Source: Pseudanabaena mucicola FACHB-723
Lineage (GTDB): Bacteria > Cyanobacteriota > Cyanobacteriia > Pseudanabaenales > Pseudanabaenaceae
Assembly: GCF_014696385.1 (NCBI RefSeq)
Contig: NZ_JACJQB010000007.1
Span: forward strand, 62,001 to 126,000
Direction of reading: 5' to 3'
DNA length: 64,000 nt
A program made the translations under genes and the position numbers. Positions within the stretch are counted from its first letter, which is position 1. Every line of letters starts with the position of its first letter. The notes under the pieces are model-generated. The model saw only the letters and a list, made by a program, of their open reading frames with translations, was not told where the DNA came from and did not search any database. Shown in pieces: positions 6,491-64,000 of this stretch.

Positions 6491-6691
6491 GTGCCTAAGC
6501 TCAAAACTCGTAAATCTGCCGCCAAGCGATTCAAGGTGACGGGTAGCGGCAAGTTTGCTCGCCGCCACGCTGGTCGCAACCACCTACTAGAGCATAAACC
6601 AACTGTTCGCAAGACCAGATTAGGTCAGATGGCTATAGTTGATGAGACTGATAATGACAGAGTAAGTGCAATGATGCCTTACGCCAGATAA
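6491..6691 (+). CDS. rpmI: 50S ribosomal protein L35
   Basis: The 66-residue basic protein starts [20 protein letters not shown] and contains [13 protein letters not shown], the standard bacterial L35 pattern. Translation starts at GTG. L35 is a small late-assembling protein of the large subunit. It is followed 62 bp downstream by rplT, the usual pairing. infC, which precedes this pair in many bacteria, is absent here; lpxB is divergent instead. Confidence 0.97.
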
Positions 6692-56007: not shown

Positions 56008-57441
56008 ATGAAAAAACGTTCTTTAATTTGGAAGACTGGGTTGGCGATCGCAATTGGAGTAACTTGTATGGTCGCTCCTTCCGTACAGCGTAGTATTGCT
56101 CAATATCCTCCTGAGATTCCGAGTTCTTCGAGTTCTGACAGTCAATCCATACAACCACCATTCGTATTTCCGCAGCCACCACAGACAAGTCCTCTCTGCG
56201 ATCGATTGACCAATACAATCTGCAATCCAACCAGTGTTGTAACGACCACTACTATCGAAACAGTCGATAAAAAAGTAACTCAAGAAGTCTGTGAATATAC
56301 AGGTAGCTGTGAATCTACGCCAACGGTAACACTCTCTTTTGTTCAAGATTTATTAAGACAAGCGGAAAAGGTCACAGAGAGTAATACGGCTCTGATTTAT
56401 CCCAACATCTTTAGCGATCGCCTAGAAATTTTGGTTGTACCTTCATCGGGTAAAGAGATTCGCAAAGTAGTTCGGAACAACAATAAATCGGGAAAAGCTG
56501 ATATCGATGAAACCGTTCTAGATTTATTAAGTGCGATTCGTGATCCTAACAGCGAAGACTATCTGCAACCATCCCAAAAACTCTATCAACTCTTAATTAG
56601 TCCAATTGAACAAGACTTAGAGGTTGCAGAAGTTAAAACATTGATCTTTGTGTTGGATGGCTCTTTGCGCTCAGTTCCCATTGCCGCATTGCACGACGGT
56701 GAGAAGTTTTTGGTGCAGAAATACGCCATGGCAACTGTGCCATCCATGGCACTGGTAAATCTCCAGATCCCCGATCGTCGTCGCAACAGTATCTTGGCAA
56801 TGGGGCTAACTGAAGAAATGCAGGGTTTCTCTGAAATTCCCAATGTAGCAACTGAGATTGACACGATTACATCCAAAATTCTCAACGGCAAAGTCTTTTT
56901 GAACAAGGACTTCACCATTGCCAATTTAGTCAAGGAACAGCAACAGGGAAATTATGGCATTGTCCATCTAGCCACCCACGCTCAGTTTTTGAGTCCCAAA
57001 ATAGATGGTGCTTTTATCCAGCTATGGAACGAGCGATTGTCTCTAGAGCAGTTGCGAACTCTCCAAGTTGGACAAGAAGCAATTGAAATGCTGACCCTGA
57101 GTGCTTGTCAAACTGCTGTCGGTCAAAACTTGGGGTTAAGTGGTGTAGCAATCATTTATCGGGCTAAGAGCGTACTTGCCTCTCTATGGGAAGTCGATGA
57201 TGCGGGGACAACACCGTTAATGCTTGACTTTTATCGGAACTATCCCACCTCCAAGAGCAAAGCAATCGCTCTGCAAAATGCACAGATTGCCATGATTGAA
57301 GGCAACGTTAGGGTGGAGAACCAACAAATTGTGGGTATACCTCAGCTTGCACCAGTGCAGCTCGCGAATCTTTCTGAAGATATAGACCTCAAGCATCCTT
57401 ACTTTTGGTCATCTTTCATTTTGGTAGGCAATTGGCTATAA
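56008..57441 (+). CDS. Exported CHAT-domain protease-like protein
   Basis: The 477-residue protein has a signal peptide (LIWKTGLAIAIGVTCMVAPS, cleavage near SIAQ) and a cysteine-containing N-terminal segment (Cys64, 72, 95, 101) with a Pro/Ser-rich stretch. The C-terminal CHAT domain (about 200-477) has His324 in VHLATHAQF and Cys367 in LTLSACQTAVG, the caspase-like catalytic dyad, plus SVLASLWEVDDAGTTPLM. CHAT proteins are caspase-like peptidases, usually fused to TPR repeats; none is seen here. It shares an operon with the porin, so it would act in the periplasm on an unknown substrate. Confidence 0.9.
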   Translation: MKKRSLIWKTGLAIAIGVTCMVAPSVQRSIAQYPPEIPSSSSSDSQSIQPPFVFPQPPQTSPLCDRLTNTICNPTSVVTTTTIETVDKKVTQEVCEYTGSCESTPTVTLSFVQDLLRQAEKVTESNTALIYPNIFSDRLEILVVPSSGKEIRKVVRNNNKSGKADIDETVLDLLSAIRDPNSEDYLQPSQKLYQLLISPIEQDLEVAEVKTLIFVLDGSLRSVPIAALHDGEKFLVQKYAMATVPSMALVNLQIPDRRRNSILAMGLTEEMQGFSEIPNVATEIDTITSKILNGKVFLNKDFTIANLVKEQQQGNYGIVHLATHAQFLSPKIDGAFIQLWNERLSLEQLRTLQVGQEAIEMLTLSACQTAVGQNLGLSGVAIIYRAKSVLASLWEVDDAGTTPLMLDFYRNYPTSKSKAIALQNAQIAMIEGNVRVENQQIVGIPQLAPVQLANLSEDIDLKHPYFWSSFILVGNWL

Positions 57442-57725: not shown

Positions 57726-58700
57726 CTAAATTGACTCCGCATTTTGGCTATACCATGCGATCGTATTACGGAGACCTTCGCGAAAGTCCACCTGTGCTGT
57801 AAAGCCAAAGGCTTGCTTTGCCCGTTCGACATCAAGACATCGACGTGGTTGACCATTAGGCTTGTCAGTTTCCCAGCTAATTTTGCCGTCATAGCCCATT
57901 AATTCACAAATTAAGTGGATTAAATCCTTGATCGAAATTTCTAAGCCAGTGCCAATATTTACTGGTTCTGATTCATTGTATTTTGCCGCAGCCATGACAA
58001 TACCTCTGGCGGCATCATCGGAATATACAAATTCTCGCGTTGGGGTACCATCACCCCATACCGAGATTTGAGCATCCCCTCTTTGCTGTGCTTCATAAAC
58101 CTTACGGATCAAAGCAGGGATAACATGGGAACTATGGGGATCAAAATTATCTTCAGGTCCATATAGATTTACGGGTAATAGGTAAATACCATTAAATCCA
58201 TATTGCTGGCGATAGGACTGCAATTGCACTAGTAGGGCTTTTTTGGCAACACCATAGGGGGCATTGGTGACTTCAGGATAGCCATTCCACAGGTCGCTTT
58301 CCTTAAAAGGGACTGGGGTAAAGTTGGGATAGGCGCAAATTGTACCAACACAGACAAATTTTGCCACCTTGGCTTGATAGGCCGCATGGATTAATTGCAC
58401 ACCCATCATGAGGTTGTCATAAAACAGTTCCGCAGGTTTTTCGCGATTGAGTCCAATGCCGCCAACATGCGCCGCAAGATGAATAATTAAGTCCTGACCT
58501 TGGACAACTTGTTCACAGATGGATTGCGATCGCAAATCATGGTCTTTTGATCTCGGCACCGTAATTAGCTCAGGATTTGCACCTGCGGCAACCAGTTGAG
58601 CAATTACCCGCTTACCTAAAAAACCTGCCCCACCAGTGACGAGAATTTTCTGCTCTGAGAATGGAGTAGCTAGGGTCTGATTTGATTGAGTTTTCAGCAT
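57726..58700 (-). CDS. fcl: GDP-L-fucose synthase
   Basis: This epimerase-reductase turns GDP-4-keto-6-deoxymannose into GDP-L-fucose. The 324-residue SDR-type protein has the NAD(P)-binding [39 protein letters not shown], the Tyr/Lys pair in [11 protein letters not shown] and the fucose-synthase block [20 protein letters not shown] and [22 protein letters not shown] is typical. It follows gmd by 31 bp, so both enzymes are made together, feeding surface polysaccharide or O-antigen. Confidence 0.94.
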
Positions 58701-58731
58701 AAAAATTTTTCAGTAAGTTACGAGCATTTAA

Positions 58732-59802
58732 CTACCAAGTCGATGCTTGTCCAGCATTTCGCAAAGTGGCAATATCCTGAGAATGTGTGCCTTTAGGATT
58801 GGGTAGCCCCAAAGCTTCTAAATCAGCATCAACCATTAGCTCAACTAAATCTTTGAAAGTTACCTTTGGTTCCCAACCCAACTTTTGCTTTGCCTTGGTG
58901 GAGTCACCTAACAGCAAATCAACTTCGGCGGGACGGAAGTAGCGTGGATCGATCTCTACATAATCTTCCCAATTGAGATTGACATAGGCAAAAGCTGCCT
59001 CTAAAAACTCACGCACAGAACGAGTTTCACCCGTCGAGATCACATAGTCATCGGGTTTTTCCTGCTGCAACATCAGCCACATTGCCTCAACATAGTCTTT
59101 GGCATATCCCCAATCACGTTTTGAGTCAAGATTGCCTAGATATAGTTTTTTCTGTTGATTAGCAACAATTCTGGCGATCGCCCTAGTAATCTTTCTGGTG
59201 ACAAAAGTTTCACCACGCCTTGGTGACTCATGATTAAACAAAATGCCATTGCAAGCAAATAAACCATAGGATTCGCGATAGTTAATCGTCTGCCAATGGG
59301 CATAAACCTTGGCACAGGCATAAGGACTGCGTGGATAAAAGGGCGTAGACTCATTTTGTGGCACAGCTTGTACCAAACCATACATTTCTGAAGAACCTGC
59401 CTGATAAAAACGAATCTCGCGCTCGTTCCGTTGCTGATAATCGCGCAGAGCCTCTAGCAACCGTAGAGTTCCCATCCCCACCGCATCAACTGTGTATTCA
59501 GGAGAATCAAAACTGACACGCACATGGGATTGAGCACCCAGATTAAATACTTCATGGGGTCTAACTGCCTCTAAAATTCGCCCTAGAGTTGTACCGTCGG
59601 TTAAGTCCCCATAGTGCAGAAATAGCTTAGTTTCTGGCAAATGCGGATCTTGGTACATATGATCGAGGCGATCGGTATTGATTGTTGAAGTGCGGCGGAT
59701 AATACCATGGACTTCATAACCCTTAGATAGAAGCAGTTCTGACAAGTAAGAGCCATCCTGCCCCGTAATACCCGTGATTAAAGCGCGTTTAGAATTACTC
59801 AT
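58732..59802 (-). CDS. gmd: GDP-mannose 4,6-dehydratase
   Basis: Gmd dehydrates GDP-D-mannose to GDP-4-keto-6-deoxy-D-mannose. The 356-residue protein has the Rossmann motif [55 protein letters not shown], the YxxxK active site in [15 protein letters not shown], and [20 protein letters not shown]. The length is standard. The promoter should lie in the 150-bp gap to the hairpin at 59912. Confidence 0.96.
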
Positions 59803-59911: not shown

Positions 59912-59954
59912 GATCGCAATAAAGGCGGCGCAAAGCGCCGCCTTTATTGCGATC
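59912..59954 (-). terminator. Terminator-like hairpin of the REC-GGDEF-EAL gene
   Basis: A perfect 20-bp stem (59912-59931 with 59935-59954) closes an AAA loop; apex GGCGGCGC-AAA-GCGCCGCC. It begins inside the TGA stop of the upstream gene. Only GATC-type bases follow, with no strong T run, so it may protect mRNA as much as terminate. Confidence 0.7.
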
Positions 59955-61674
59955 ACAAGCTTTTACCATCTACTAGCATTTTCTCAAATTCGGAAGCAGG
60001 TAAGGGTGGGCTAAAGAAGTAGCCTTGAAACTGATCGCAGTTATGCTCTTTTAAAAATTGGATCTGATCATCAGTTTCCACACCCTCAGCAATAACTTTC
60101 AAGTTCAAACTATGGGCAAGATCAATGATCGCTAGGGAAATTGTCGCATCATGGCGATCGGTGGTGATATCCTGCACAAAGCAACGATCGATCTTGATTG
60201 TATTTACAGGGAAATGCTTAAGATAGCTGAGAGATGAGTAGCCTGTGCCAAAATCATCGATCGCAATTTTGACACCCATCAATTGCAATCGAGATAGCAC
60301 CTCAATCGTAAACTCAGCATTTTGCATAATGATGCTTTCAGTTAGCTCTAGTTCTAAATTCTCTGCTTCAACACCAGTATCTTGCAGCACTTTACTAACG
60401 ATCTCTAGCAAGTTGTTGTCTGGGCGAAAATGCTGTCCTGACAAATTAACTGCCACAAATCCGTAATCAATGCCTGCATTGCGCCAAGCTCGCATTTGCT
60501 CGCAAGCAGAATATAGGACAACTTCACTTAGTCTTAAAATCAGCCCCGTTTGCTCAGCGACAGGTATAAATTTACTGGGCATGATGATACCAAGATCGGG
60601 ATGTTGCCATCTCGCTAAGGCTTCAGCACCAACTATTTTTCCCGATCGCAAATCAACCAAGGGCTGATAAAAAACCCGAAACTCTCGCCGATCGATGGCA
60701 CGATGGAGGCTATTTGCCAGAGCCATATATTCTGAAGATTGAACATTCAACTCAGGGCTATAGAGTTTATAGCTATTTCTGCCATGGGTCTTGGCATAGT
60801 ACATCGCTAATTCCGCATTTTTGATCAAGCCATCTGGTTCTTGGTGATCATCAGGAAAGATCGTAATCCCAATACTGCTGGTAATAAATACTTCATGACC
60901 ATAAAGGTTATAGGGACGACTGAGTAAATCGATAATTTTTTGGGTTTCCGCCTTGATGCTAACTAGATCGGGAATATCGGAAATAATGAGGGCGAATTCA
61001 TCTCCCTGTATCCGAGCCACCATGTCACAGGGAGCCATATAACGTCTTAATCTCTCAGCAATCGCCTTAAATAATTGATCGCCAATATCAGTACCAAGAG
61101 TATTGTTGATGATATTGAAGTTATCCATATCTAGAAACAACAAAGCCAAGGATTTTTGATTAATCTTGGAATGTAGGACTGCTTGGCTCAGAGATTCATA
61201 GAAAAGGATACGGTTGGGAAGTTGGGTAAGCCCATCATGATTAGCTAAGTATTCAAATTTTGCCCCCACAGCCTTGATTTCGTCATAGTAATGTTCACGG
61301 ACAGAGTTATATTTTTGCAGTCGTGAAGAGATTGCCCCCAGCAATTCACCCGATGTAAATGGCTTGGTCAGATAGTCGTCAGCCCCTAATTGCATGGCTT
61401 GACGCATATCTGATTTCTCAGTCATTGCCGTCAGAAATATAAACGGAATCATCGAAGTTTGCGGATCTTTCCTTAGGGCAATGAGAGTTCCGTAGCCATC
61501 CAACTCAGGCATGGCAATGTCGCAAATAATCAAATTTGGCAAATAGGTCTGAGCAATTTGCACCCCAACCACCCCATTTTCTGCCCCTAAAACGTCAAAT
61601 CCTTCATAGGATAGCGTTTCCATAATTTCTTCGCGTAAAGCTTCTACGTCTTCGATGACTAAAATAGTCGTCAT
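59953..61674 (-). CDS. Response regulator with GGDEF (degenerate) and EAL domains
   Basis: The 573-residue protein has a receiver (1-118) with ED at 8-9, phospho-acceptor Asp52 in LIICDIAMPELDG and Lys104. A coiled segment leads to a GGDEF domain (about 140-305) whose signature is RIQGDEF (221-227) where RxGGDEF is expected; the missing first Gly suggests weak or no cyclase activity. The EAL domain (320-570) is complete: EALARWQHP (351-359), LELELTESIIM, AIDDFGTGYSSLSYLK and VIAEGVET. So it probably works as a phosphodiesterase that degrades c-di-GMP, with GGDEF as a possible GTP sensor. It starts 8 bp after the upstream sensor kinase, its likely phosphodonor. Confidence 0.93.
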   Translation of the reverse strand: MTTILVIEDVEALREEIMETLSYEGFDVLGAENGVVGVQIAQTYLPNLIICDIAMPELDGYGTLIALRKDPQTSMIPFIFLTAMTEKSDMRQAMQLGADDYLTKPFTSGELLGAISSRLQKYNSVREHYYDEIKAVGAKFEYLANHDGLTQLPNRILFYESLSQAVLHSKINQKSLALLFLDMDNFNIINNTLGTDIGDQLFKAIAERLRRYMAPCDMVARIQGDEFALIISDIPDLVSIKAETQKIIDLLSRPYNLYGHEVFITSSIGITIFPDDHQEPDGLIKNAELAMYYAKTHGRNSYKLYSPELNVQSSEYMALANSLHRAIDRREFRVFYQPLVDLRSGKIVGAEALARWQHPDLGIIMPSKFIPVAEQTGLILRLSEVVLYSACEQMRAWRNAGIDYGFVAVNLSGQHFRPDNNLLEIVSKVLQDTGVEAENLELELTESIIMQNAEFTIEVLSRLQLMGVKIAIDDFGTGYSSLSYLKHFPVNTIKIDRCFVQDITTDRHDATISLAIIDLAHSLNLKVIAEGVETDDQIQFLKEHNCDQFQGYFFSPPLPASEFEKMLVDGKSL

Positions 61675-61682
61675 AATTTCAT

Positions 61683-64000
61683 TTATTCCTTTAGGTAAAT
61701 CGGTAGTTTTACCTTGACAGTGGTTCCTTTATTTTCAGTGCTGATAAGTTGAATTGTGCCACCAAGGATGTCAACTGAGTTTTTAATAATTGCCATTCCC
61801 AGACCAGTACCAACGATCATACCAACATTATGAGCGCGATAAAAATGCTCAAAAATCTTTTCTTGATCTCCAAGAGGAATGCCAATACCTTTGTCTTCAA
61901 ACTCTAACAAAAGCTTAGGTGTGTGCTCATTAGTTTGAGCCACTGTAAAATTGACTTGGCTGGCATTTGGTGAATATTTAATCGCATTTGATAGCAAATT
62001 AGAAATAAGCTGTCTAAAAAATTTGGTGTCAATCAAAATTTTGATCGGAGCATTAACATTTTTAAAAACAACTTGATGTTTACCATTGCCTAGCAGCTTC
62101 GTTTGTTCAATGATTTCCAAGCAGAAGTCTTCTAGATTAATTTCTTCTAACCGCAATTCAAACTTACCAGATTCTGTTTTGCCAATAATTAGCACTTCCT
62201 CTAACAGGTTGGTCATCCCCTTGACTTCACGCTGGATTTTATCGATGCGCTCCAGTTTTTTGTCCTCTGACATTTTGTGACTATAGTTTCTTAGTAAATC
62301 ACTAGCGGTCTGGATGGTGGCGAGAGGAGTGCGAAATTCGTGGGAGGCTCTAGAAATAAATTGCGATTTAAGTTCATTAAGTTCTTTTTCTTTGCGTAAT
62401 GCGCGTTCTAGCTGACTTAAGCTTTGTTCTAACTGATGAGTGCGATCAGCGACTTGACGTTCAAGATTTTTATTAAGGTCTTGCACGCGCTCAAACAATT
62501 GCACCTGTTGAATTGCGATCGCAACATGATTGGCAAGTTGTCTGAGTAAATCGATTTCAAATTCTTCCCACTGACGGGGCGCAAAGCATTGATGGGCAAT
62601 CAATAAGCCCCATAATGTATCACCAAAGGAAATCGCGGCGACAATGTTTGCTTTTACTTGAAAGCATTGCAAAAGCTCCTTATGGCAAGGGGTCAAGTCA
62701 GCAGTATCGACATCAATGATGCTCGAAATCGCACGATTTTGATAGCGGTGGATATTTTCTTGATTAAAACAGGAATCGCTGATGGTTTTGCCAAGAATTG
62801 ACAATTCAGGATTATTAACCGCTTCGACAACAAATTTGCCGCTCCAATCCTCTTGGAACTGATAAATGACCACCCGATCGATGCGTAATAAAGCCTGTGC
62901 TTCTTGAACAGTAATTGCCAGAACTTGATCGAGGTTTAACTCCCGTTGAATCTTGAGCAAAATTGCATTTAATAGTCGCTCTCTTTCGTTTTGGTAGCGG
63001 AGTTGCGTTTCTACTTTTTTGCGATCGCTAATGTCGTAATAACTACTCAAATACATCCGCTTACCCTTGTAGGACATCAGTCTTGTCGAAACTAAAACAT
63101 CCTTAAATATTCCATCGCGATGTTGAATGCGTGTCTCTACGGTAATCGCCTGCCCCGTTTCCTGTAAATGCTGCAACCTTTGCAGCGCTTTACCATGCTC
63201 ATCGGGATCAGGATAAAGAAAAGTTGTAAAATCGGGGCTAGCATTTGCCTCGCTAATCGTATAGCCCGTTAAATTCTCCATACCTGCATTGAAAATCGAG
63301 AAATATCCTGAATCATCGCTAAAGGTAATCCCCTCCTTAATCGATGTCAGCACTGTCCGCAATCTCTCTTCACTTTCGAGCAGTCTTTGGGTGGACTTGA
63401 CTTGATCAGTGATATCAGTTTGAATGCCAATGTAATTAGTGAGATCACCATGATCATTAAATACTGGCGCAATATACAAATCATTCCAAAAAGGTGTGCC
63501 ATCCTTACGATAGTTTAGTAAAACAGCGTGGCATTCCCTTTGTTCTTCAATCGCTCGGCGCAGGTCTAGCAAACCCACCTGATTGCGATCCCCCCCTTGC
63601 AAAAATCGACAATCGCGCCCAAGCACTTCATCGGCTCTATAACCAGTGATTCGCTCAAAACTAGGATTAACATAAATCATCGGATTATTGGGCTGTGTGG
63701 CATCCGTAATCACGATGCCATTAGAGCTAGCGGCGATCGCCCGCTCTCGCAACTGCAACGATTCCTCCACCCGCTTCCGCTCCGAAACATCCCGCAAAGA
63801 TGCCACCACATAAACTCGCCGATCCGCATCGACAGCATGGGAAACGCGCATTTCTGCTGATGTAGTGCTACCACGATTGAGGATATCGACATCTGTGCTT
63901 TCTCCCGCAACTACAGGCAAACCAAAGGTTTCGCCCACAAGTTCTTCTGCACTACAGCCAAACAAATCTTCTGCGGATTGATTGATATAGCGCACTACCC
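61683..64000 (-). CDS. Sensor histidine kinase with PAS, LOV, PAS and DXCF-cyanobacteriochrome GAF domains; 5' end outside window
   Basis: The frame is open to the right edge, so the N-terminus is missing. Numbering from the GTG at 63995: a PAS domain lies at 1-75. A LOV-type PAS (83-197) carries GRDCRFLQGGD with photoactive Cys129, LLNYRKDG (Asn161), FWNDL (Asn171) and IGIQTDIT (Gln192), the FMN-contacting set. Another PAS spans 205-325. The GAF domain (345-500) has DSCF (407-410) and TPCHKELLQCFQVKANIV with Cys437-His438, 28 residues apart, as in DXCF cyanobacteriochromes. A coiled coil leads to HisKA with His552 in SHEFRTPLAT and an ATPase domain ending GTGLGMAIIKNSV. The following gene is a receiver-GGDEF-EAL regulator 8 bp away. 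Two photosensory domains in one kinase are directly visible as motifs; photochemistry is inferred. Confidence 0.9.
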   Translation of the reverse strand, partial: VVRYINQSAEDLFGCSAEELVGETFGLPVVAGESTDVDILNRGSTTSAEMRVSHAVDADRRVYVVASLRDVSERKRVEESLQLRERAIAASSNGIVITDATQPNNPMIYVNPSFERITGYRADEVLGRDCRFLQGGDRNQVGLLDLRRAIEEQRECHAVLLNYRKDGTPFWNDLYIAPVFNDHGDLTNYIGIQTDITDQVKSTQRLLESEERLRTVLTSIKEGITFSDDSGYFSIFNAGMENLTGYTISEANASPDFTTFLYPDPDEHGKALQRLQHLQETGQAITVETRIQHRDGIFKDVLVSTRLMSYKGKRMYLSSYYDISDRKKVETQLRYQNERERLLNAILLKIQRELNLDQVLAITVQEAQALLRIDRVVIYQFQEDWSGKFVVEAVNNPELSILGKTISDSCFNQENIHRYQNRAISSIIDVDTADLTPCHKELLQCFQVKANIVAAISFGDTLWGLLIAHQCFAPRQWEEFEIDLLRQLANHVAIAIQQVQLFERVQDLNKNLERQVADRTHQLEQSLSQLERALRKEKELNELKSQFISRASHEFRTPLATIQTASDLLRNYSHKMSEDKKLERIDKIQREVKGMTNLLEEVLIIGKTESGKFELRLEEINLEDFCLEIIEQTKLLGNGKHQVVFKNVNAPIKILIDTKFFRQLISNLLSNAIKYSPNASQVNFTVAQTNEHTPKLLLEFEDKGIGIPLGDQEKIFEHFYRAHNVGMIVGTGLGMAIIKNSVDILGGTIQLISTENKGTTVKVKLPIYLKE

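Follow-up and report, generated by a model that had tools for sequence, protein, structure and literature searches.

Cyanobacteria use blue and green light to decide whether to move or to settle, and this decision depends on cyclic di-GMP (c-di-GMP); the described systems that place c-di-GMP under blue or green light are separate one-component enzymes carrying either a LOV domain or a cyanobacteriochrome (CBCR). SL2 of Synechococcus elongatus has the arrangement LOV–GGDEF–EAL and breaks down c-di-GMP in blue light (PMC8846402, PMC5812497), while SesA, SesB, SesC and Cph2 join a CBCR to GGDEF/EAL domains and bring c-di-GMP and motility under blue/green control (PMC9090330, PMC5812497). In Thermosynechococcus, c-di-GMP goes up in blue and down in green light via CBCR enzymes, which switches phototaxis (PMC9090330). 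Among histidine kinases, Ppr of Rhodospirillum centenum combines PYP and a bacteriophytochrome with a kinase (PMC5812497), and PPHK of Leptolyngbya JSC-1, which has a CBCR (PDB 6OAP), is termed a dual-sensor histidine kinase in a passage of PMC11480761 citing Shin et al. 2019. Here, we describe two adjacent minus-strand genes in a 64,000-nt stretch (the window; positions 62001–126000 of contig NZ_JACJQB010000007.1) from the 3.96 Mb genome of the filamentous cyanobacterium Pseudanabaena mucicola FACHB-723, which encode a sensor histidine kinase with a LOV domain and a DXCF-type CBCR GAF domain, and a response regulator with REC, GGDEF and EAL domains. We consider it fairly probable that they form a two-component light-signalling pair, in which the kinase acts on the regulator to lower c-di-GMP.

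By analogy, the pair would work like a two-component version of SL2 together with CBCR control of the Ses/Cph2 type. It shares with SL2 a blue-light LOV and a GGDEF–EAL output, and in a domain tree the LOV of the kinase clusters with the LOVs of LOV–GGDEF–EAL proteins, whereas SL2 is a single protein with neither bilin nor phosphorelay. The Ses proteins and Cph2 resemble it in the proposed role, blue/green control of c-di-GMP by a CBCR, but they are one-component and have no LOV and no kinase–regulator pair. Ppr likewise brings two chromophores to one histidine kinase, although these belong to PYP and phytochrome and not to LOV and CBCR. The Pseudanabaena pair is a new arrangement of known parts, not a new kind of system.

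Domain architecture of the kinase

The kinase frame has its stop at window position 61683 and leaves the window at 64000, with part of the gene extending past this end. The contig beyond the window (L009) completes it about 496 bases further on, where an ATG at L009:6497 gives a protein of 937 aa and a TTG at 6506 one of 940 aa. An earlier, sequence-only reading of the window had the coordinates and motifs right, and its Cys129, Cys409 and Cys437 correspond, in full-length numbering, to Cys296, Cys576 and Cys604. An N-terminal region is followed by a PAS domain with no known cofactor (approximately residues 147–235; 63792–64000 and partly outside the window), the LOV domain (residues 256–366; 63399–63731), another PAS domain (approximately residues 378–490; 63027–63365), the CBCR-type GAF domain (residues 521–662; 62511–62936), HisKA (62166–62369) and HATPase_c (61698–62030). 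The domain search of the full-length protein, including the part past 64000, gave the same order in Pfam: PAS, PAS_9 at 259–364 (protein E 2.3e-39), PAS, GAF at 521–662 (2.4e-18), HisKA and HATPase. All hallmarks of a histidine kinase were found, namely the phospho-acceptor His719 of HisKA (in SHEFRTP) and the N, G1, F and G2 boxes.

When compared with LOV domains of known structure, the LOV segment matched 7r5n best (E 6e-45) with Cys296 (codon 63609–63611) in register, and its GRDCRFLQG aligned gap-free on the DCRFLQ/NCRFLQ motif that holds the photoactive cysteine of solved LOVs. The residues contacting flavin mononucleotide (FMN), Asn328, Asn338 and Gln359, are invariant across the aligned loci of the genus; the second of these Asn is replaced by Val in G194 and G256, two genomes from other genera of the family. 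Foldseek placed LOV structures first among the matches to the predicted fold, 9vf7 (TM-score to query 0.85) and 7r5n. The segment appears to be a flavin (FMN) photosensor, and the LOV-type PAS with GRDCRFLQG and FMN contacts that the sequence-only reading described is borne out.

The GAF domain appears, judging from alignments and predicted fold, to be a bilin-binding DXCF cyanobacteriochrome. Against solved CBCRs it matched 6oap at E 1.7e-41, with further matches to miRFP670nano, RcaE, TePixJ and AnPixJ, and its DSCF...PCH fell on DPCF...ECH of TePixJ (6p58) with no gap. The second cysteine of the DXCF type, Cys576 (codon 62769–62771), and the canonical bilin-attachment cysteine, Cys604 (codon 62685–62687, followed by His605), are 28 residues apart in both proteins, the spacing already noted for the DSCF and CH of this GAF. 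Profile alignment, which might have moved the cysteines elsewhere, places Cys296 and Cys576/Cys604 at the photoactive positions, and a chance match of the motifs was ruled out because of the profile E-values and the gap-free alignments. In Foldseek, CBCR structures came first for the predicted GAF fold (6ob8/6oap), and TePixJ had a TM-score to target of 0.77–0.81; the structure models are of moderate confidence and were used for the fold only.

PPHK, which takes its second input from a phosphorylated receiver domain, is the closest solved structure to our GAF in both sequence and fold, and it also sets a CBCR GAF beside a second sensor in a kinase. Its GAF, however, has DQYF without the DXCF cysteine and a green-absorbing state (Pg), whereas our kinase has a LOV as its second sensor, plus two PAS domains. 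TePixJ, which shares the two aligned cysteines with our GAF as other DXCF CBCRs do, belongs to the methyl-accepting phototaxis proteins and has neither a LOV nor a kinase, and the local pocket sequence of our GAF has diverged. The host genome contains one gene for a ferredoxin-dependent bilin reductase.

The REC–GGDEF–EAL partner and its output

Eight base pairs separate the kinase stop from the ATG of the regulator gene at 61674, and the receiver–c-di-GMP enzyme that had been read from the letters at this distance was recovered by Pfam as REC, GGDEF and EAL. The regulator (59953–61674, minus strand) has 573 aa, and the active site of its REC domain (61330–61665) is intact, with the phospho-acceptor Asp in IICDIAMPELDG and the Lys in DYLTKPF. 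Within Pseudanabaena, the gene lies directly downstream of the kinase on the same strand in 23 of the 23 loci measured, at a spacing of 8–398 bp, and it adjoins the kinase in the three further genomes as well, which brings the count to 26 of 26. Seven family members outside Pseudanabaena show the same adjacency, within tens of bases in G106, G194, G256 and G308 and with a 4-bp overlap of the two genes in G169, G232 and G297.

The EAL domain (60004–60714) has every catalytic residue (EAL, N, E, DD, K, E, Q), and 16 of the 17 Pseudanabaena regulators read lack none of them. The GGDEF domain (60775–61245) is probably no working cyclase: its motif is QGDEF, the first Gly and the I-site RxxD (here APCD) are lost, and the catalytic Asp/Glu are kept. 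As the EAL site is conserved and the GGDEF site degenerate, the main output of the regulator is, from what is established about EAL enzymes, probably c-di-GMP degradation. A c-di-GMP output, as first proposed, agrees with the composition of the partner, but it likely consists in breakdown and not in a balance of synthesis and degradation. Were the regulator instead a net diguanylate cyclase or bifunctional, light would raise c-di-GMP; the metal- and GTP-binding residues of the GGDEF domain (LDMDNF, NNTLG, DEF) are indeed kept in Pseudanabaena despite the first-position Q, and GGDEF domains with a variant first residue can be active. This is quite improbable in view of the lost I-site, the further decay of the motif in relatives (QGDQF, RGDVF, DSEF) with the EAL intact in most, and the best NCBIfam matches of the regulator, which are phosphodiesterases, though below cut-off. 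Separately, a regulator match at G010:C59:17695–19413 carries one internal TAG stop, and a pseudogene or an assembly error is possible there.

Retention and loss of photosensors in the Pseudanabaenaceae

The kinase has an ortholog in each of the 26 Pseudanabaena genomes searched, and all 26 orthologs have the LOV adduct cysteine; the DXCF cysteine is present in 24, the canonical cysteine in 23, both in 23, and the Asp of DXCF in most. Mean pairwise identity within the genus is 89% for LOV, 80% for GAF and 53% for the N-terminus, making LOV the best-conserved sensor domain. In the family outside Pseudanabaena, G194, G256 and G308 retain the LOV Cys together with both GAF cysteines, G106 retains LOV but has lost the DXCF cysteine, and G225 retains both GAF cysteines beside a LOV that has lost the Cys motif. 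The whole LOV is absent from G169, G232 and G297, which retain a textbook DXCF GAF. In the regulators of these three (L068, L069 and L070), the EAL domain reads AQGIET for AEGVET, the catalytic Glu being replaced by Q, so that loss of the LOV accompanies loss of the presumed phosphodiesterase there. The persistence of the kinase where LOV is deleted or Cys-less would suit a system in which the kinase is set by the CBCR alone or by neither photosensor, with the LOV serving as a redox or structural PAS; flavin redox sensing is known in LOV-like PAS domains of other proteins. We give this very little credence, however, since the Cys and the FMN contacts are complete and invariant over the genus in its most conserved sensor domain.

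Several observations weigh against light control of c-di-GMP by two chromophores through this pair. The GAF pocket has YQNRAISSI where a typical CBCR has YRQGR..., and ANIVAAI for ANLVVPI, so the surroundings of the chromophore have diverged in Pseudanabaena, whereas they are typical in most relatives. The AlphaFold model is unreliable between Cys576 and Cys604 (pLDDT 39–52), so that the match in fold does not extend to the geometry of the bilin site. The bilin site may also be weakening, as bilin cysteines are missing from three members of the genus: G004 and G015 have neither, and G006 lacks the canonical one only. The G004/G015 and G006 losses fall on different branches in a tree of the kinases. 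Furthermore, the regulator stands apart from any kinase in the family members G116, G225 and G274, and in that of G188 (L082) the catalytic EAL Glu of AEGVET is lost (AKGVET). In G188, the EAL is probably inactive while the kinase keeps both photosensors.

The solitary regulators could mean that kinase and regulator are adjacent yet non-cognate, which is very improbable given that they adjoin on the same strand in every Pseudanabaena examined and in seven genomes from other genera, three of them with overlapping genes. The drifted pocket, and the contrast between bilin cysteines lost in three members and a LOV Cys lost in none, would fit a kinase in which LOV is the sole working photosensor and the GAF, without bilin or without useful photochemistry, is a signal-transmitting module. 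We regard this as unlikely, as 23 of 26 members retain both GAF cysteines and most of these the DXCF Asp, and the best matches of the GAF are all bilin-binding CBCRs. In addition, the LOV-less G169, G232 and G297 and the Cys-less G225 keep both GAF cysteines, which marks the GAF as a genuine sensor within the family.

With bilin cysteines gone in some genomes and LOV gone in other genera of the family, the two photosensors appear to be undergoing exchange within the lineage. We infer from these patterns that most of the genus makes use of both sensors, with the bilin site under weaker selection than LOV. The control of c-di-GMP by flavin and bilin through one kinase, which the sequence-only reading had envisaged, is likely in this strain, its domains and gene pairing being supported by profiles, folds and conservation over the genus. 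It is not fixed in the lineage, because constraint on the bilin site is weaker than on the LOV site and some close relatives no longer have it.

Other LOV–CBCR kinases and the proposed mechanism

LOV domains were searched in 126 evenly drawn genomes of the class, and about 80 loci were read. A LOV with the adduct Cys and a CBCR GAF with two cysteines occur in one frame in Pseudanabaenaceae, in family f20 (L157, L165 and L172, the last with two CBCR GAFs) and in family f4 (L184); this count of fusions is a lower bound because only part of the LOV loci was read. The f20/f4 proteins are like our kinase in uniting both sensors in one histidine kinase, but the GAF stands immediately after the LOV, the HisKA is of the HE[VI]NNP type, and no REC–GGDEF–EAL neighbour was seen at these four loci. 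The pairing of LOV and CBCR, presented at first as new together with this output, is therefore not unique to the Pseudanabaena kinase: two or more other cyanobacterial families have it, in a different layout. Both the LOV and the GAF tree set the f20/f4 fusions apart from those of the Pseudanabaenaceae with moderate support, which favours separate origins; a single origin of all is possible.

Among 20 selected distant class-wide matches spanning a LOV–PAS–GAF query, none combined a CBCR GAF with the LOV Cys motif in a single frame, and a plasmid search gave weak PAS/kinase matches only. No published description of a LOV–CBCR kinase was found in the mostly open literature searched, and priority in subscription papers is possible; work by Mandalari et al. 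in 2013 is said to deal with the co-presence of flavin and bilin receptors. Another LOV histidine kinase is encoded in the host genome (L126:3074–6664 on C56, a frame of 1196 aa) and also has counterparts elsewhere in Pseudanabaena; it was rejected as a further LOV–CBCR case as its GAF is not of the CBCR type. In two genomes of another family (L106:2577–8495 and L121:1500–7776), a LOV hybrid histidine kinase lies directly beside a separate CBCR-like GAF–GGEEF gene, so that flavin and bilin-type sensors are paired across two genes; the GAF cysteines there are unusual (CYF/CQ) or missing.

About 150 bp downstream of the regulator and on the same strand, 57726–59802 holds GDP-mannose dehydratase-like and GDP-fucose synthase-like genes, which recur as neighbours in several other Pseudanabaena but not in all genomes; a link to surface polysaccharide is possible. 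Further on, 56008–57441 encodes a 477-aa protein with a signal-like N-terminal segment and a C-terminal CHAT-type peptidase-like domain.

For the two-component pair, we infer cofactor binding, photochemistry, phosphotransfer, sign of response and phenotype as follows. The kinase would be a dimer in which an FMN LOV sensor is joined by a bilin-carrying DXCF GAF nearer the catalytic core, with a coiled-coil linker leading from the GAF to HisKA. Blue light would form a Cys296–FMN adduct that resets itself in the dark, while the GAF would toggle, as in TePixJ, between a short-wavelength (blue) doubly linked state with Cys576 on the bilin and a green/teal/orange state, and in this way would report spectral balance. 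Both sensors would shift the register of one coiled coil and with it the balance of kinase and phosphatase activity; His719 would then hand its phosphate to the REC Asp of the neighbouring regulator, which would set the EAL activity and lower c-di-GMP, with the GGDEF domain as a non-catalytic or GTP-binding regulator. Since blue would act on both sensors and longer wavelengths on the GAF only, the cell could separate blue intensity from blue/green balance. Gliding or attachment would be the likely targets, and gliding and phototaxis are described for Pseudanabaena (PMC8365994).

The kinase–regulator pair is plausibly functional. We put forward only tentatively the wider proposal that, throughout the genus, a kinase combining a flavin switch that resets itself with a bilin switch that light can reverse sets one c-di-GMP phosphodiesterase, with photosensors exchanged under a constant pair; LOV–CBCR kinases would then be a recurrent, undescribed class of photoreceptor. 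If this is true, one conserved two-chromophore kinase would offer a test case for how photosensors that differ in lifetime and reversibility are combined, as well as a ready-made dual-colour module, and relatives that have naturally lost the bilin cysteines, the LOV cysteine or the whole LOV would provide paired comparisons.

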